A DNA stretch of 36,104 nt from Calditrichota bacterium (GTDB lineage: Bacteria; Calditrichota; Calditrichia; Calditrichales; J004). The notes under the pieces are model-generated. The model saw nothing but the letters and a program-made list of their open reading frames with translations. It had not been told where the DNA came from and searched no databases. Every line of letters starts with the position of its first letter. Within the stretch, counting starts at the first letter, position 1. Below, in pieces: positions 7,341-33,794 of the stretch. Position numbers and translations under genes: made by a program. The stretch lies in NCBI GenBank assembly GCA_003696775.1, contig RFFS01000002.1:1-36104 (forward strand). Direction: 5' to 3'.

Positions 7341-9396
<2,056 letters not shown>

Positions 9397-9413
<17 letters not shown>

Positions 9414-12624: not shown

Positions 12625-12648
12625 GGCCATCTGAGGATGGCCTTTTTT
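12625..12648 (+). terminator. Rho-independent terminator after glgA
   Basis: A perfect 7-bp stem GGCCATC (12625-12631) / GATGGCC (12636-12642) with loop TGAG is followed by six T (12643-12648). The T-run ends only four bases before the ATG of gmhB, so the hairpin also lies in the translation start region of the next gene. Confidence 0.85.
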
Positions 12649-12652
12649 GGTT

Positions 12653-13225
12653 ATGGAAAAAGCGATCTTTTTAGACCGGGACGGAACCATAAATGAAGAA
12701 ATGGGGTACATAAACCACATTTCACGTTTTCATATATTTCCGTTTACCTTTGAGGCGCTTAAGGTATTTAAGAAATGTGGCTACAAATTGGTTGTGATAA
12801 CCAATCAGGCCGGTTTGGCCCGGGGATATTTTAGCGAAGATGTGTTACGTGATGTGCACGGGATGCTGGAAAAAAGAGCCCGGGATGCCGGAGTGCCTTT
12901 GGATAAGATATACTTTTGTCCGCATCTGCCCGGCGCGCCGGTAAAAAAATACGACCGGATGTGCAATTGCAGAAAACCCAAAACCGGCATGCTGGAACAG
13001 GCCCGTGATGAATTGAATATCGATTTGAGCCGTTCGGTTATGATTGGTGATCGCTACAAGGATGTGCTGTTCGGAAAAAAAATGGGATTGAAAACCGTGA
13101 TGGTTTTAACCGGGTACGGCAAAGGTGAATACACCTATCAAAAAGAGCAGTGGAAAGAAAAACCGGATATAGTTGCCGATAATTTGCTGGATGCCGCCAT
13201 GAAAATTTGTCAACCAAAAGGATAA
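12653..13225 (+). CDS. gmhB: D-glycero-beta-D-manno-heptose 1,7-bisphosphate 7-phosphatase
   Basis: GmhB is a HAD phosphatase that removes the 7-phosphate from heptose 1,7-bisphosphate in ADP-heptose synthesis for the LPS inner core. The 190-residue product has the HAD nucleophile motif FLDRDGTINEE (Asp8, Asp10), the motif II strand VVITNQAGLARGYF, the zinc loop CPHLPG...CNCRKPKTGML (Cys89, His91, Cys104, Cys106) and IGDRYKDVLFGKKMGLKTVMVLTGYG. ATG 12653 is the default start. TTG 12647 is preceded by GAGGA at 12633-12637, which lies inside the terminator hairpin, so either is possible. A related domain occurs in HisB in this window but without the zinc cysteines. Confidence 0.92.
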   Translation: MEKAIFLDRDGTINEEMGYINHISRFHIFPFTFEALKVFKKCGYKLVVITNQAGLARGYFSEDVLRDVHGMLEKRARDAGVPLDKIYFCPHLPGAPVKKYDRMCNCRKPKTGMLEQARDELNIDLSRSVMIGDRYKDVLFGKKMGLKTVMVLTGYGKGEYTYQKEQWKEKPDIVADNLLDAAMKICQPKG

Positions 13226-13235
13226 AAAGGAAAGA

Positions 13236-14360
13236 ATGAAACGCATACTCTCTCTTCTGATAGTGATATTTTTCTATGCCTGTCAGAGCAATGATCCGGA
13301 CTTTATCAATAACCCGGATTTTAAAACTGACCGATATGGGCAATTTAAAATCGATACGCTGTTTGCCGTAAAGGATTCTACTTTTTTTGCGGATACGGTC
13401 AATACCAATAATGCCTCGCGTTTATCCATGGCGCGTATGGGTGGTATGAGCGCGGGTTTTGTGGTAAAATATCTGGACTTACCCGCCGATACGGTAGATG
13501 TCACCGCGGCCAGGCTACGCCTGACAACCCTTGGTCATTTTGGTGACGAAGGTGATGACGTAATGGTGGATATGTATAATGTAACTGCGTTGTGGGATGC
13601 CAAGGACAATATCAATGGCGAAACAATTTGGCATGAGAATCCGCCGATCAGTTTTTTAAAAACAGTTACATTTACATTGCAGGACAGCGGAGTTACGGAA
13701 ATAGAGATTGAACCCTCGTTGATAAAAACCTGGCAGGGTAATGATTCGCTGAATTACGGTTTTTACTTTACGTTGAACCCGTCGGAAAACAACCGTAACG
13801 TGGAAATCGGCGCGCGTTCATCCGCTTTCGGCCCGCAATTGGTTTACGCCTATAATGATACAAGTGATACGGTTAAAGCAACGAATGATGCCACCATTTT
13901 CGATTACGATCGGGAAAATGGCATAATATTTAATGAAAACGGCGGATATCTCGCCTCGGGTATCGCCATGCGTTATCTGCTGCGATTTGATCTCTCGCAA
14001 ATTTCGGAAAAGGCGATCATTTACAATGCAAATCTGGCCATACCCTACGATCCGGATTTTAGCTACAGAAATCCCAATAAAACGGAAGCCTTCACGTTTA
14101 AGGCTTACGAGGATTTTAATGCGGACGATCAAAATCCGGGGTATGCGCTTAATATGTACACCGGTTCGGGGGTAACGCGTGTAAGCAATCAACCGGCATT
14201 GGCAACGGACTTTATCCAGCCCATGCGCAATGGCGATATTAGCCATCAGTGGTTTGCCCTGCAATTCACTTCGGAATCGGATGTGTTCAGCGCGATGCAT
14301 TTTTATGGTGTGGATAGTGATAAAAAACCGATGTTAATTATAAAATATCTGGAAAAATAA
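13236..14360 (+). CDS. Predicted lipoprotein with duplicated DNRLRE-like domain
   Basis: This 374-residue exported protein has a short hydrophobic leader MKRILSLLIVIFFYAC, with Cys16 as probable lipidation site; the lipobox FYAC is not ideal. The mature part shows two related halves. Each has a run of DxT/A residues, a segment ending in a G-rich turn, a strand like AGFVVKYLDLP or IAMRYLLRFDLS, and then a hydrophobic strand such as VTAARLRL or IYNANLAI. This is the pattern of DNRLRE-type beta-sandwich domains of cell-surface proteins. A ribosome binding site AAAGGAAAG lies before the ATG. Its stop overlaps the start of the next gene (TAATG), so the lipoprotein and the barrel protein are translated together. 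Function unknown. Confidence 0.72.
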   Translation: MKRILSLLIVIFFYACQSNDPDFINNPDFKTDRYGQFKIDTLFAVKDSTFFADTVNTNNASRLSMARMGGMSAGFVVKYLDLPADTVDVTAARLRLTTLGHFGDEGDDVMVDMYNVTALWDAKDNINGETIWHENPPISFLKTVTFTLQDSGVTEIEIEPSLIKTWQGNDSLNYGFYFTLNPSENNRNVEIGARSSAFGPQLVYAYNDTSDTVKATNDATIFDYDRENGIIFNENGGYLASGIAMRYLLRFDLSQISEKAIIYNANLAIPYDPDFSYRNPNKTEAFTFKAYEDFNADDQNPGYALNMYTGSGVTRVSNQPALATDFIQPMRNGDISHQWFALQFTSESDVFSAMHFYGVDSDKKPMLIIKYLEK

Positions 14361-15580
14361 TGACGATTAAACACATAACAATAAATCTGCTCATCGGCGT
14401 CTTTTTATGGATGAGCGCCACCGTGGCTCTGGCCGGTGAATCCTATTTTGGTCTTGGAAACAACAGTTTTGGTTTGGTACAGACACCTTATTCCGCCAAG
14501 GCCTGGGGCCGCTCTTTCGGCATGGCCGATCCGGATTCCCTACAATTGAATTTCAGAAATTATGCCGCCTGGACAAACATCCCCATCACAACGTTAACGT
14601 TGAACAGTTCTTACAGTCTGATTCGCGCGGAAAATCCCACATCAATCAGTTTATTGGACAATGCCAACTTCCAGGGCGCGGCATTGGGCATACCCGTTAT
14701 GAAACGCACACTCACGCTCGGTGCCAACATTCAGCCTTATTCTACCATTGAACAGCGTGTGGCGGGCCAAACCACGGTAGATTCCAACACGGTGGAGCAA
14801 AATGTCTTTGTACATGGCGGCCTGTCGCGCGCCAATCTGATACTGGCCTGGAAACCGATTGAACGTATGAGTTTCAGTCTGGGTTATGAATATACCTTTG
14901 GACTAGTTACGGAAGAAGCTTTTATAAAATTGAATGATAATTTTGACAACCGTTTTAATTTTTCGTATCAAAACCGGGTGAATGGCCACGGTTTGGTGAC
15001 CGGTTTGCATGCCACCCCCCTTGATGGATTGTCTTTAGGCGTGCAATACCGACCGATGGTAACCGCCACACTGGTTCAAACCGGTGACACACCGGCCAAA
15101 AGTTTAAATGCGGCCATTGAGCGTCCGGTAACCCTGCCAGCCGAATATAATTTTGGCATGGAATACCGATGGGGAGACCGCTATGCCGCCGGCGCCGATG
15201 TCATTTATCAGGATTGGGAAAACGCATTTAAAATTGATGGCCAAAAGGTCAACGGATATGCACCGTTTTATCGTGTGAGCATGGGCCTCGAGCGCCGTGG
15301 AAGCACGCGGCAGTTTATTGATTACGGTAAACTGATTGACTGGCGCGCCGGATGGTACTATACACAAATGGCGCATACATTCAATGGACAAAAGGTAATG
15401 GAAACGGGATTGAGTATCGGGGCCGGATTGCCCTTGCAGCGGTACCGTTCAAAAATAGATTTATACATCAATGTATCCCGCCGGGGCGATATGGATGCCA
15501 ATAAGTTACAGGAATGGGTTTTCCGTGTTGGTCTGGGAATCAGTGCGAATGAAATATGGTTTGTTAATGTTGAAGAATAA
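14360..15580 (+). CDS. Predicted outer-membrane beta-barrel protein (FadL/PorV-like)
   Basis: The 406-residue product has a signal peptide (LLIGVFLWMSATVALA-GE, cleavage near residue 25). It continues with alternating amphipathic strands rich in aromatic and glycine residues, for example LTLNSSYSLI, LTLGANIQPYS, FSLGYEYTFGLV, LSLGVQYRPM, YNFGMEYRWGDRYAAGADVIYQDW and WVFRVGLGIS. The early segment TPYSAKAWGRSFGMADPDSLQLNFRNYAAW resembles the substrate-hatch start of FadL/PorV-like barrels, where a statement of position in the barrel (asp/asn-pro-ala) usually occurs. The end FVNVEE is not a typical BAM-recognition terminal phenylalanine. It is coupled to the lipoprotein gene and followed nine bases later by the TPR gene. 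Confidence 0.72.
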   Translation: MTIKHITINLLIGVFLWMSATVALAGESYFGLGNNSFGLVQTPYSAKAWGRSFGMADPDSLQLNFRNYAAWTNIPITTLTLNSSYSLIRAENPTSISLLDNANFQGAALGIPVMKRTLTLGANIQPYSTIEQRVAGQTTVDSNTVEQNVFVHGGLSRANLILAWKPIERMSFSLGYEYTFGLVTEEAFIKLNDNFDNRFNFSYQNRVNGHGLVTGLHATPLDGLSLGVQYRPMVTATLVQTGDTPAKSLNAAIERPVTLPAEYNFGMEYRWGDRYAAGADVIYQDWENAFKIDGQKVNGYAPFYRVSMGLERRGSTRQFIDYGKLIDWRAGWYYTQMAHTFNGQKVMETGLSIGAGLPLQRYRSKIDLYINVSRRGDMDANKLQEWVFRVGLGISANEIWFVNVEE

Positions 15581-15589
15581 GGAGGTGTT

Positions 15590-16843
15590 ATGAGATACCT
15601 TTGGTTGCTTTTATTATTGTTGCCCCTTACGGCGGCTATGGCGCAGGATATGGATCTGCCCGACGAAGATGACGAAATGGAACAGGAAGACGTGCAATGT
15701 ATTGCCGATTCCCTTACCGTTCCCTATGAAAGTTATAAAGGTCTGGCCCAATCGCCGATTGATGTTAAAAAATGGTACAGCTTCGGCAGTGAACATATGA
15801 AAAATAAAAGCTATGATGCGGCTCTTCCGTATCTCTGGAAAGTATTTTTCAACGACAGCACGAAATACGCCAACCGCGCCATTGGTAAAATCGCCGAGGC
15901 CTATTTTAAAAAACAAAAAGCCGACAGCAGCTTGCTGGCCTGTTACATCGGATTAAAGGTATTTCCGGAGCAACAAAAACTGCATTACTACGCCGGTTTT
16001 TTACAGGACCGTCTGGGGCGTTATAAATGCGCGATTCCGCATTATGAAAATCTGGTGAAGCACAATCCCAAAAACAAGAACTATCTGGAAAAACTGGCCC
16101 TGCTTTATTTCAGAGCCGGAGATGAAAGAGCCATTGAAGTTCAAACAAAAGTAACCGAACTCTTTCCGGATGATGTTAAGGCCAGCGAAGCCTTGGGAAC
16201 ATATACCCAATCCTTGTTGGGTTCGGCTATTGAAGTTTGGAAGGAAGCCTTTGAAAAAGACCCCAACAACATCCGGGCGGCGCGTAATTACGGTAAGGAA
16301 GCGGTGGAAGAAGGTCTGAATGAGGAAGCCATTAAACCGTTAACCGTTGTCATCAATAAAGAAGCCAAACCGGAAGATTTTAAATATCGGGCCATGGCTT
16401 ACGCCAACCTGAAACAATATAGCAAAGCTATCAATGACCTGAAAGCCTGGCTGAAATTGGAGCCGGATAATGCGGATATCATGCTATCTATTGCTGATAA
16501 TTACATGGCTGCTGAACAACTGAAATCAGCCAAGACCTGGATCAATAAAGCGTTAAAGAAAAAACCGGGTTATGGCAAGGCATATATCGCCATGGGTGAA
16601 TTGTATGAAACCGCCGTATCCGTTTGCCAGAAAAAACGCGGCAGCAATGAATATAAAATGGAAGATAAAATCGTTTTTGAAAAAGCCCGTGCCTGGTATA
16701 AAAAAGCCATGAACGATCTGGCTTCCAAGGCGCGTGCGCGTACAAAATACAACAACCTGAAGGATTTTGTGCGTACCAGTGAAGATAAATTCATGGAACC
16801 GAACGCCAAAATTAAGAGCAGTTGTTACAGTTTTATCAAATAA
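15590..16843 (+). CDS. Exported tetratricopeptide-repeat protein
   Basis: The 417-residue product starts with a clear signal peptide, MRYLWLLLLLLPLTAAMAQ, followed by an acidic stretch (DMDLPDEDDEMEQEDVQ). From about residue 65 to 345 the sequence is made of helical repeats with TPR spacing, such as YDAALPYLWKVFFNDS, LGRYKCAIPHYENLVKHNPKNKNYLEKLALLYFRAG, LKQYSKAINDLKAWLKLEPDNADIMLSIADNYMA and LKSAKTWINKALKKKPGYGKAYIAMGELYE. Such proteins are periplasmic scaffolds. An excellent ribosome binding site AAGGAGG lies just before the ATG. Together with the preceding lipoprotein and barrel it makes a three-gene exported unit. No enzymatic motif is visible. Confidence 0.85.
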   Translation: MRYLWLLLLLLPLTAAMAQDMDLPDEDDEMEQEDVQCIADSLTVPYESYKGLAQSPIDVKKWYSFGSEHMKNKSYDAALPYLWKVFFNDSTKYANRAIGKIAEAYFKKQKADSSLLACYIGLKVFPEQQKLHYYAGFLQDRLGRYKCAIPHYENLVKHNPKNKNYLEKLALLYFRAGDERAIEVQTKVTELFPDDVKASEALGTYTQSLLGSAIEVWKEAFEKDPNNIRAARNYGKEAVEEGLNEEAIKPLTVVINKEAKPEDFKYRAMAYANLKQYSKAINDLKAWLKLEPDNADIMLSIADNYMAAEQLKSAKTWINKALKKKPGYGKAYIAMGELYETAVSVCQKKRGSNEYKMEDKIVFEKARAWYKKAMNDLASKARARTKYNNLKDFVRTSEDKFMEPNAKIKSSCYSFIK

Positions 16844-16855
16844 AACAGGTGTCAT

Positions 16856-17296
16856 ATGAAAGTAGGTATCGGTTCGGATCATGCCGGGTTTGTGATGAAG
16901 GAAGCCATCATAAAATTTCTGGAAGAGAAAAAAATTGAGTTTATCGATTATGGCACCTTCAAGGAAGAATCCGTAAATTATCCCGATTACGCTCTAAAAG
17001 TGAGCAAGGCGGTGACAGACGGCGATGTGGATTATGGAATCCTGATCTGTGGAACGGGTATCGGTATGAGCATCACGGCCAATAAAGTTAAAGGTATCCG
17101 TGCCGCTTTATGCCATAACGAAGAAACCGCCCGTATGAGCCGGCTGCATAACAACGCCAATGTGCTGTGCCTGGGTGGACGGGTGTTGGAAGAAAGTCTG
17201 GCCCTGAAAATGGTGGAGCTATGGCTAAACACCTCTTTTGAAGGCGGCCGTCATGAAAATAGGATCAAACTGATATCAACCCTAACCGGTTTATAA
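16856..17296 (+). CDS. rpiB: Ribose-5-phosphate isomerase B
   Basis: RpiB interconverts ribose 5-phosphate and ribulose 5-phosphate in the pentose phosphate pathway. The 146 residues carry the family motifs [26 protein letters not shown], the phosphate/enediol loop [32 protein letters not shown] (catalytic Cys65) and [14 protein letters not shown]. Length is normal (about 145-150). It lies 12 bases after the TPR gene and 10 bases before glyA. It supplies ribose 5-phosphate, the precursor of the PRPP used by the his operon elsewhere in the window. Confidence 0.97.
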
Positions 17297-17306
17297 AGGA
17301 GACGAC

Positions 17307-18587
17307 ATGTTAGCACAACAGGACCCGGAACTGTTTGGCTTTATCGAAGCGGAAAAAGACCGGCAAAACAATACCATTGAACTGATCGCCTCGGAAAATT
17401 TTGTATCCCCGGCTGTTTTGCAGGCCGCCGGTTCGGTGATGACCAACAAATATGCGGAGGGTTATCCCGGTAAACGCTATTACGGTGGTTGTGAATTTGT
17501 GGATCAGGCCGAAAACCTGGCCCGGGAGCGTGCCCGTGAGTTGTTTAAATGTGAATATGTAAATGTACAGCCACATTCGGGATCACAGGCCAATATGGCG
17601 GTCTATTTTACTTTTCTGAATCCCGGAGATACCATTTTGGGCATGGATTTGTCCCACGGCGGGCACCTCACACATGGTTCACCGGTCAACTTTTCCGGAC
17701 GGTTGTTTCATTTTGTTTCTTATGGAGTGGATAAGGAAACCGGCCGGATCAATATGGATACGGTTCAGAAACTGGCGCGTGAACACAAACCCAAAATGAT
17801 TGTGGTGGGCGCTTCGGCCTATTCCCGTCATTATGAATTTGATAAATTTCGGGAAATCGCCGATGAAACCGGCGCTTTTCTGTTTTGTGATATCGCCCAT
17901 CCGGCCGGACTGGTGGCCGCCGGTTTACATCCCAGCCCGGTACCGTATTGCCATGTGGTGTCCACGACCACCCATAAAACATTGCGCGGTCCCCGTGGTG
18001 GTATGATAATGATGGGCAAGGACGCGGAAAACACCATAGGTAAGGTGGCGCCGAAAAGCGGACGGGTCAAAATGTGGTCGGAATTGGTGGACAGCCAGGT
18101 GATGCCCGGTATTCAGGGGGGGCCCTTGATGCATATCATCGCCGCCAAGGCGGTGGCGTTTGGCGAAGCGTTGCAACCCGCTTTCCGTGAATACGCGGCA
18201 CAAATAATCAAAAACGCCCAAACTCTGGCCGCGGCATTGGTGGAAAAAGGCTATGATATCGTCTCCGGCGGAACGGATAATCATGTTTTTCTGGTGGACC
18301 TGAGCAATAAAAATTTAACGGGCAAAGCCGCGGAAAACGCCCTGCACGCAGCGGGGATCACGGTAAATAAAAATATGGTGCCGTTTGACACGAAAAGTCC
18401 TTTTGTGACCAGCGGTATTCGTCTCGGAACCGCCGCCATGACCACCAAGGGCATGAAAGAAGAACAAATGAACATTATTGCCGGATTTATTGACCGTGTA
18501 TTGAGTGACGTGGAAAATGAATCGTTACAAAAAGAGATTAATACGCAGGTGCGTGAGCTTAATAAAGATTTTCAAATGTATGCCTGA
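17307..18587 (+). CDS. glyA: Serine hydroxymethyltransferase
   Basis: This PLP enzyme converts serine and tetrahydrofolate to glycine and 5,10-methylene-tetrahydrofolate, the main source of one-carbon units. The 426 residues match the bacterial family: [72 protein letters not shown], the [17 protein letters not shown] strand and the PLP-lysine motif [14 protein letters not shown] (Lys224). The C-terminal domain has DNHVFLVDL and [16 protein letters not shown] strong ribosome binding site AAAGGAGA precedes ATG 17307. It is the last gene of the run from gmhB and is followed by a strong terminator. Confidence 0.98.
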
Positions 18588-18644: not shown

Positions 18645-18674
18645 AAACCCGCGTAGCTGTTACGCGGGTTTTTT
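18645..18674 (+). terminator. Strong rho-independent terminator between glyA and tatC
   Basis: A perfect 11-bp stem AAACCCGCGTA (18645-18655) / TACGCGGGTTT (18661-18671) with a five-base loop runs into a T-rich tail to 18674. It ends only 15 bases before the preferred tatC start, leaving no room for a promoter in between. Confidence 0.92.
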
Positions 18675-31054: not shown

Positions 31055-31639
31055 TCATGTTAAGGTTAAAAAGTTGTGCAAAATGCGTTCACCGGTTGCC
31101 GCGCTTTTTTCCGGATGGAATTGCACCGCGTAAAAATTATCCTTTTGGACCGACGCGGCAAATGGGCACAGATAATGGCCTTCCGCCGTCATGAACGGGT
31201 TGCATTCCATGTAATAGCCGTGCACAAAATAGACATAGCTGTTTTCGGGCACACCGTCAAACAGAGGGCCGCGTAACCGGCGGATATTATTCCAGCCCAT
31301 GTGCGGTACTTTGCCCGTATCGGGAAAACGGCGCACACGGCCCGGAATCAGTCCCAGACCCGGGGCGTTGTTTTCCTCGCTGCTTTCGGCCATCAGCTGC
31401 AGACCGAGGCAAATCCCCAGAACCGGTTGTTGCAGCTTGCGCAACACTTCGTCCAGTCCTTTTTCCCGCAAATAACGCATGGCGGAAAGCGCCTCGCCCT
31501 GACCGGGAAAAATGACCCGATCGGCGGCACGCAGTTCATCGGGTTCATCACTGATCACGGCCGTGTGGCCCAACCGCTTCAGGGCCAGTTTCACGGACAA
31601 CACATTGCCCGCGTTGTAGCGCACGATAACGATTTTCAT
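31055..31639 (-). CDS. hisH: Imidazole glycerol phosphate synthase, glutamine amidotransferase subunit
   Basis: HisH hydrolyses glutamine and channels ammonia to HisF. The class I amidotransferase triad is seen as Cys77 ([11 protein letters not shown]), His175 and Glu177 (VQFHPEKS). [20 protein letters not shown] and FPGQGE are family marks; YNAGN replaces the common YGxGN. The 194-residue length is usual. The start overlaps the hisB stop by four bases. Confidence 0.97.
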
Positions 31640-32733
31640 AAAAGCCCCTTGGTGCTGGGAATGCCATCGCTATAATCGTCAATTTTCAGCGCCATTTTTA
31701 TCGCCCGCGCCCAGGCTTTGAACAAGGCTTCGATTTTATGATGTTCATTAACCCCGTCCACCTGCATATTCAGGGTGCATCCGGCGGTATCGCTAAAGGA
31801 TTTAAAAAAATGATAAAACATCTCGGTTGGCATGTCACCGATTCTTTCGCGATTGAATTCCGCCTGCCACACCAGCCAGGGTCTTCCGGAAAAATCGATC
31901 GCCACGCGAGCCAGGGCCTCGTCCATGGGCAGATGAAAGCCGTAACGTTGCATGCCTATTTTGTCGCCCATGGCCGCGCGCATGGCCTCTCCCAGGGCCA
32001 GCGCCGTATCTTCGATGGTATGATGCTCGTCCACGTGCAAATCTCCCTTGCAGCGGATATACAGGTCCATGCCCGAATGCCGCGCCAGTTGTTCCAGCAT
32101 ATGATCGAAAAAGCCCAATCCGGTGTGAATATCGCCGATGCCCTGACCTTCCAGGGCCACATCCACAATAATATCCGTTTCCTTTGTGGTTCGCGTGATC
32201 CGCGCCGAGCGGGCCGCCGCGCACAATCGCCGCGCCGCTTCTTCCCAGCTTGTGGTTGTTACATCGGCGCCGGTTTCTTTCTTACCGAGATACAGGGCTT
32301 TGCAGCCAAGATTGCGGGCCAGTTGCACATCGCTTTCCCGGTCACCAATCACCCAGGAACCGGCCAGATCGTACGTACCATTCAGGTAGGCTGTCAGCAT
32401 GGCCGTGCCCGGCTTGCGCGTGGGGGCGTTATCTTCGGGAAAATGTCGGTCGATTAAAACATCATCAAAACGGATGCCTTCCCCCTCGAGAATGGACAGC
32501 ATCAGATTATGTACCGGCCAAAAGGTCTCTTCCGGGAAACTTTCCGTGCCCAGGCCATCCTGATTGGTAACCATGACCAGTTTGTAGGCGCCGCAGGCCA
32601 CCACCCGTTTCAGCGCGCCGATTACGCCCGGATAAAAGCGCATTTTGTTAAAATGGTCGATTTGTTCATCCGGCGGTTCGAGTAACACGGTACCGTCGCG
32701 GTCGATAAACAAAATTTTTTGTGCTGTGGACAT
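31636..32733 (-). CDS. hisB: Bifunctional histidinol-phosphatase / imidazoleglycerol-phosphate dehydratase
   Basis: HisB carries two steps: dehydration of imidazole glycerol phosphate and removal of phosphate from histidinol phosphate. ATG 32733, with GGAGA six bases before, gives 365 residues; 32 additional codons upstream are open but lie inside hisC. The N-terminal HAD domain has [36 protein letters not shown] and [16 protein letters not shown]. The dehydratase domain has [39 protein letters not shown] and [16 protein letters not shown] with the metal-binding histidines. The HAD domain lacks the CxHxnCxC zinc loop of the enterobacterial enzyme; that place reads [14 protein letters not shown], which I recall from Bacteroidetes HisB. 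Confidence 0.97.
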
Positions 32734-32744
32734 GGTGTCTCCGC

Positions 32745-33794
32745 TTAAAATGTAAGGGATTGCAAGGCCCCGATGAGGCGTTGATTTTCTTCGTGGGTGC
32801 CCACGGTGATGCGCAAACAGCCGGGACACAACGGTAAATCGCCGCGATAGCGAATCAGAATGTTGCGCGCGGCCAGTTTGTGATAAATATCCCGGGCGCG
32901 GGTGCTGCGCACCAGTATAAAATTAGCCCGGGACGGCCACACTTGGTCCATAACAGGCAGAACTTTCAGTTGTTCGCTCAACCAGTGTCGTTCCCGGATC
33001 AGATCGGATTTCATCCTTTGGTAACAGTCATAATGCCGCAGCGCTTCCAACGCGGCCTGCTGTGTTAAACGATTCACATTATAAGGATATTTGATGCGGT
33101 TTAACACATCGATCACCGCGGGGTGTGCAAAAGCCATCCCGAGCCGGGCGCCGGCCAGCCCCCAGGCTTTGGAAAAAGTTTGTAACACCACCAGATTTTC
33201 ATAATCATTGAGACGCGGCAGCCATCCTTGTGTTTCGGCGAAATCGATATAAGCTTCATCGATGATGACCAGTCCGTCCATGTTATCCAAAAGGGTACGG
33301 ATGGCTTGTTCATCCATCAGATTGGCGGTGGGATTATTGGGGGAACAGAGAAAAAGCAGACGGGTATGGGGGGTGAGGGCCGTCCGTACCCGTTCCGTGT
33401 TCAGGGAAAAATCATCGTTCAGCGGCGCTTCGTCCACGGCAACATTATTTATGTCGGCGCACACCCGGTACATGCCGTACGTGGGCGGGGTGATCAGGAT
33501 GCGTTGGGCGGCCGGTTCGCAAAAAGCGCGTATCAACAGGTCGATGGCTTCATCGCTGCCGTTTCCGAGAAAGATGTTTTCCGGCGCCACGTTTTTAAGT
33601 TGCGCCAGTTCCATTTTCAGTTTTTTTTGAAGGGGATCGGGATAGCGGTTCAGGGGTTCCGGGCCCGGGCTGCCCAAGCTGTTTTCATTGGCGTCAAGAA
33701 ACAGCGCCTGTTCCGAGGGATGCTCTTCCCGGGCGGAGCGGTAGGGTTTAAGCCGCCGGATGTTGGGGCGCAGCCACTTATCGGTTCGCATCAT
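32745..33794 (-). CDS. hisC: Histidinol-phosphate aminotransferase
   Basis: HisC is a PLP fold-type I enzyme that transfers an amino group from glutamate to imidazole acetol phosphate. The 349 residues show [63 protein letters not shown] and the PLP-lysine motif [15 protein letters not shown] (Lys209). AAGGAGG just before the ATG is encoded by the final codons of hisD, with which it overlaps by 17 bases. ATG 33791 is an equally good start, one residue shorter. Confidence 0.97.

Follow-up and report, generated by a model that had tools for sequence, protein, structure and literature searches.

A conserved Calditrichota gene block encodes relatives of BamH and BamG and a TPR protein that is a candidate periplasmic partner of the BAM machine

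Three genes lying back to back in a 36,104-nucleotide stretch of a Calditrichota genome (contig RFFS01000002.1; hereafter the window) encode a BamH-like lipoprotein, a BamG-like outer-membrane barrel and an exported TPR protein. Probably (probability about 0.7), Calditrichota have in this unit their own form of the outer extension of a Bacteroidota-type BAM machine, with one subunit added. The BAM machine assembles the outer-membrane proteins of Bacteroidota; its core there, BamADGH, which includes BamG and BamH, was published in 2025 for F. johnsoniae (Nature; PMC12611786) and for B. thetaiotaomicron and P. gingivalis (Nat Microbiol; PMC12578637). An earlier note, made from the DNA letters alone, had found no known counterpart for the three proteins and had regarded the genes as a candidate for an undescribed system. 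Both statements have to be given up, because the lipoprotein and the barrel are relatives of subunits of this described machine, and the TPR protein is the only member of the three without a described role. What is new is one candidate part of a known machine and not an undescribed system.

The stop codon of the lipoprotein gene and the start codon of the barrel gene share one base (TAATG), and nine bases that include a GGAGG ribosome binding site (TAA GGAGGTGTT ATG) separate the barrel stop codon from the start of the TPR gene, so the coordinates and spacing given in the earlier note are confirmed, as is the location among housekeeping genes. The upstream neighbours are glgA and gmhB and the downstream neighbours are rpiB and glyA; the intergenic gaps to gmhB, rpiB and glyA are 10–12 bases (Table 1). 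Since terminator-like hairpins detected by a consensus scan flank the region from gmhB to glyA, the genes gmhB–lipoprotein–barrel–TPR–rpiB–glyA probably form one transcription unit. The true start of the gmhB-like gene may be the ATG at 12653. Elsewhere in the window, a HisB-like frame on the minus strand (31636-32829) has, judged from its translation, an apparent HAD-type phosphatase part before an imidazoleglycerol-phosphate dehydratase part, and an amino-acid-permease-like protein encoded on the plus strand (7341-9413) continues at its C-terminus into a long soluble part with a possible regulatory role, again judged from the translation.

Table 1. Positions in the window of the three-gene block, its neighbours and associated signals
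Feature	Position	Strand	Remarks
gmhB-like HAD phosphatase gene	12647..13225	+	Pfam Hydrolase_like E 2e-19
bamH-like lipoprotein gene	13236..14360	+	374 aa; lipid-anchor Cys16 codon at 13281-13283
bamG-like barrel gene, FadL superfamily	14360..15580	+	406 aa
Ribosome binding site GGAGG before TPR gene	15581..15589	+	sequence TAAGGAGGTGTTATG
Exported TPR protein gene	15590..16843	+	417 aa; Pfam TPR families; candidate periplasmic BAM partner
rpiB, conserved neighbour	16856..17296	+	Pfam LacAB_rpiB E 1e-62; gene order in relatives
glyA, conserved neighbour, marker for assembly gaps	17307..18587	+	Pfam SHMT E 2e-174
Terminator-like hairpin before gmhB	12625..12642	+	GGCCATC-TGAG-GATGGCC then TTTTTT; consensus match only
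Terminator-like hairpin after glyA	18645..18671	+	12-bp stem then TTTCTTAT; consensus match only

The barrel carries a signal peptide and has the sequence of an outer-membrane barrel family. Residues 28-402 match the BamG model of NCBIfam (NF053685) with an E-value of 3.4e-48 and a score of 165 bits, which is under the curated equivalog cut-off of 250 bits, and BamG is the sole NCBIfam match of the barrel in a scan up to E 1. With a family profile built from 32 relatives, all three BamG proteins solved in the PDB are matched over their full length (3e-46, 2e-33 and 1e-26), and the next match is TodX (3e-4, about 130 residues). The profile is aligned to BamG from the first residues and to TodX internally only. 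No other strong BamG is present in the genome of the window, where the next best match reaches about 60 bits. Its assignment as a BamG relative is well supported by these sequence comparisons, and an assignment as PorV or as an ordinary FadL is rejected on the NCBIfam and PDB profile results.

The lipoprotein has a signal peptide followed by a lipid-anchor cysteine (Cys16) that is invariant in 21 homologues. Single-sequence searches reveal the DNRLRE domain alone (E 3e-10), plain-search matches to the TGF-beta propeptide in Pfam (0.06) and to a cytokinin-binding protein in the PDB (0.02) being uninformative, and only the family profile and the fold reveal BamH. A search of the whole PDB up to E 10 with the profile of 21 relatives gives a single and weak match, P. 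gingivalis BamH (E 0.005). In agreement with this, the three best fold matches of the AlphaFold2 model (pLDDT 86, pTM 0.80) in the PDB are BamH of B. thetaiotaomicron (3.0e-12), P. gingivalis (4.3e-12) and F. johnsoniae (2.8e-11), followed at rank 4 by the chondroitin-sulfate-binding module 8wab (2.8e-5). The TM-score between the model and BamH is moderate, about 0.58 normalised by the query length, with an identity of about 10%, and by these fold matches the model contains the two-domain BamH fold with a domain like a chondroitin-sulfate-binding module. DUF4270 is not detected in the window lipoprotein by a Pfam scan; it is matched weakly by three of the 21 relatives (best E 1.4e-4), and CBM96 is also matched by three of the 21. 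By profile and fold it is well supported that the window lipoprotein is a BamH relative, predicted to be of the surface type with beta-sandwich domains. Genes for BamA and BamD lie at other places in the genome of the window, and SprA, which has been linked by the authors to BamG and BamH (PMC12611786), is found in all 40 Calditrichota genomes, in 38 of them over the cut-off; both observations speak for a BAM role of the pair. It is highly probable that the two window proteins are divergent counterparts of BamH and BamG, which most likely belong to the organism's own BAM machine.

The TPR protein has a cleavable signal peptide ending in AMAQ, followed by an acidic linker in which 11 of 22 residues are Asp or Glu. 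Its AlphaFold2 model (pLDDT 91) is an all-helical, continuous TPR solenoid, and the fold matches of this model in the PDB are generic TPR proteins. The mean pairwise identity is 44% for the TPR protein (30 sequences), 32% for the barrel (32) and 29% for the lipoprotein (21), values that come from genome sets that are not identical; by this comparison of sequences the TPR protein is the best conserved of the three. The names MamA, PrsT, OGT and consensus TPRs given by NCBIfam or the PDB reflect generic repeat similarity. The TPR protein is not BamD (YfiO), since the match over the cut-off of TIGR03302 in the same genome is another gene (C124:18607-19296), and TIGR03302 is absent among the best 25 NCBIfam matches of the TPR protein. 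BamP has been described as having a linker inside the BamA barrel that connects two folded domains (PMC12611786), and this tripartite build sets it apart from the one continuous solenoid in the model of the TPR protein. In Calditrichota the signal of the TPR proteins ends in A-Q without a lipobox; most relatives outside the phylum have a lipobox-like cysteine at their start and look like lipoproteins. In a small alignment inspected by eye, most sequences from outside the phylum have either both C346 and C412 or neither of them, and C37 as well as C147 is restricted to Calditrichota, suggesting that the protein may have disulphides between residues 37 and 147 and between residues 346 and 412. 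The word "TPR" occurs in neither BAM paper (PMC12611786, PMC12578637), no paper on a TPR partner of BamG or BamH turned up in a literature search, and a 2026 review of BAM mentions just the Bacteroidota work.

Lipoprotein, barrel and TPR genes form a fixed gene block in Calditrichota. Among 40 genomes of the phylum, including the 97% complete genome of the window, the order lipoprotein–barrel–TPR is found wherever contigs permit, so the three kinds of protein do travel together. The block is usually followed by glyA, with rpiB present or absent, and glgA and gmhB are retained upstream in only part of the phylum. In a scan of named genomes, the matches of the TPR profile are almost exclusively Calditrichota assemblies. 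The BamG model matches all 40 genomes, the weaker matches including ordinary FadL-type barrels. A plain search finds the lipoprotein in 24 of the 40, and profile and position place it beside the barrel in others that were examined. Four genomes (G009, G014, G020 and G039) have neither a strong BamG match nor the block. Since the conserved neighbour glyA is missing from them too, the region is probably missing from these assemblies, and a genuine loss of the block has been set aside. One genome (G011) also encodes a second, Bacteroidota-type pair (L137; C15, 22994-24130), in which a DUF4270 protein (Pfam E 6e-30) is followed by a BamG of 306 bits, over the curated cut-off. TPR relatives without barrel or lipoprotein genes are seen at L117, L128, L132 and L133, some of them being second copies in genomes that carry the block as well (e.g., L117), and further TPR relatives without a barrel are at L191, L192 and L194.

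Among 250 genomes outside Calditrichota, the TPR profile (E 1e-25) matches 13 and the barrel profile (1e-12) matches 34, and both match in 10 genomes, whereas 1.8 would be expected (Fisher p 1.3e-7, in a test that treats genomes as independent and ignores shared ancestry). When weaker TPR matches are included, a TPR gene directly follows the barrel gene at 11 loci in nine families outside the phylum (L186, L187, L188, L189, L193, L196, L197, L198, L200, L217 and L218), with a short gap at most of them. At all of these except L200, the barrel gene is preceded by a BamH-like gene or by a lipoprotein-like gene missed by the profile, the latter kind being assigned by position only. At L189 (G094:C156), two tandem TPR genes come straight after the barrel gene. 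Since the identical gene order recurs across the searched Calditrichota genomes and in several outside families, the three-gene arrangement is not due to chance. The refuting condition named in the earlier note, independent occurrence of the three genes, does not hold within the phylum; outside it, barrel and lipoprotein are often found without a TPR gene. Such BamG/BamH loci are many (e.g., L201, L204, L206, L207, L210 and L215), and another locus without a TPR gene, L212, has a Bacteroidota-type BamG of 348 bits. At L210 and L215 the lipoprotein–barrel pair stands right before glyA or rpiB–glyA with no TPR gene between them, as if the TPR gene had been lost. Some of the conservation of gene order may be synteny by descent, since the neighbours rpiB and glyA are conserved too.

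Three solved complexes show BamG and BamH in contact with one another and with BamA (PMC12611786, PMC12578637). In F. johnsoniae, BamG sits on the back of BamA and BamH on the outer part of BamG, arching over the folding site, and both are needed for BAM function (PMC12611786); in B. thetaiotaomicron, BamG appears essential and BamH is important but not essential (PMC12578637). Known BamG is a FadL-type barrel with an extended N-terminal tail passing through the lateral opening, and known BamH is seated on BamG, its lipid anchor lying between BamG and BamA. The outer partners of the Bacteroidota BAM are BamM, BamP and BamI-K. In the outer membrane, by homology with the solved complexes, the BamG-like barrel of the window would have its place behind BamA, and its outer loops would hold the lipid-anchored BamH-like protein, which would form an arch above the folding site of new barrels. 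The TPR protein is exported to the periplasm and may dock on the inner face, either on the POTRA domains of BamA, on BamD or on the short C-terminal tail of BamG, thereby helping to hold the complex together or to receive clients. The structure models are single chains, and the assembly of the BamG- and BamH-like proteins with BamA is one that we infer. The idea that the three proteins are parts of one outer-membrane complex therefore stands in part: the lipoprotein and the barrel are related to proteins that are physically in one complex, and the TPR protein is a putative member. Gene order and co-occurrence lean somewhat towards the TPR protein being an accessory periplasmic BAM subunit. There is an even chance that the TPR family whose gene comes directly behind bamG, both in Calditrichota and in nine or more families outside the phylum, is an old, unrecognised periplasmic subunit of the FCB-type BAM, which would be a lipoprotein in most lineages, soluble in Calditrichota and absent from, for example, Bacteroidota. 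Its absence from such lineages would explain why it is absent from the solved complexes.

The most serious alternative concerns the TPR protein, which could be an unrelated envelope protein, with a role perhaps in the assembly of LPS, peptidoglycan or the type 9 secretion system, lying in a conserved rpiB/glyA housekeeping neighbourhood beside genuine BAM subunits. The conservation of rpiB and glyA as neighbours, the many bamHG loci without a TPR gene, the TPR relatives that stand alone, and one genome (G097) that keeps TPR–rpiB–glyA while its best barrel match lies elsewhere all agree with it. However, the upstream genes and rpiB vary within the phylum while lipoprotein–barrel–TPR is constant, the TPR family is enriched in BamG-bearing genomes, and the short distance to the barrel gene is kept at most loci, so that we regard this alternative as unlikely, though worth keeping in mind.

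A second alternative, less probable still, takes the two proteins for a specialised side pair and not for the main BAM subunits. In B. thetaiotaomicron, bamG2 and bamH2 share a putative operon (PMC12578637), and the BamG score of the window barrel under the curated cut-off would fit such a paralogue, but the barrel is the sole strong BamG of its genome and is present throughout the phylum, and G011 retains the phylum-wide block in addition to its Bacteroidota-type pair. A third alternative, which is very improbable, would make the barrel a FadL-type transporter of the ordinary kind or a PorV-type shuttle of the type 9 secretion system (T9SS) with its own lipoprotein and TPR accessory. The barrel does belong to the FadL superfamily (Pfam Toluene_X 0.04), and the T9SS protein SprA is present in the phylum. 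Against this stand the exclusive NCBIfam match, the lead of BamG over TodX by more than 20 orders of magnitude in the PDB profile search, and the BamH fold of the partner lipoprotein. A Calditrichota version of the BAM outer extension with an added TPR subunit is hence the reading that we prefer.

The definition of BamG and BamH comes from three cultured Bacteroidota, and the authors report both proteins in six of seven other FCB phyla (PMC12611786). The coupled bamH–bamG–TPR genes of Calditrichota and other groups suggest that the BAM outer extension is old, and they single out the TPR protein as a specific candidate subunit that was beyond the reach of studies on Bacteroidota. In addition, the gene order glgA/gmhB–bamH–bamG–TPR–rpiB/glyA provides a handle for very divergent BamH proteins that are missed by Pfam.

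Among known components, BamD (YfiO), itself a TPR lipoprotein, resembles the TPR protein in its predicted place at the periplasmic side of the outer membrane, and most outside relatives of the TPR protein look like lipoproteins. However, BamD is a separate gene family encoded elsewhere, and the TPR protein of the window has 417 residues compared with about 260 and lacks a lipobox. The BamG2/BamH2 paralogues of Bacteroidota likewise have adjacent barrel and lipoprotein genes (PMC12578637, PMC12611786), but these paralogues are dispensable, whereas the window pair is the only strong copy in its genome and is phylum-wide. Compared with the Bacteroidota BAM itself, bamH and bamG of the window are coupled with a TPR gene, whereas the locus tags of bamG and bamH in F. 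johnsoniae are distant, and the window lipoprotein differs in that DUF4270 is undetectable. What the two systems share is a FadL-superfamily barrel belonging to the BamG family, a lipoprotein that folds like BamH, and the presence of BamA and BamD in the same genome.
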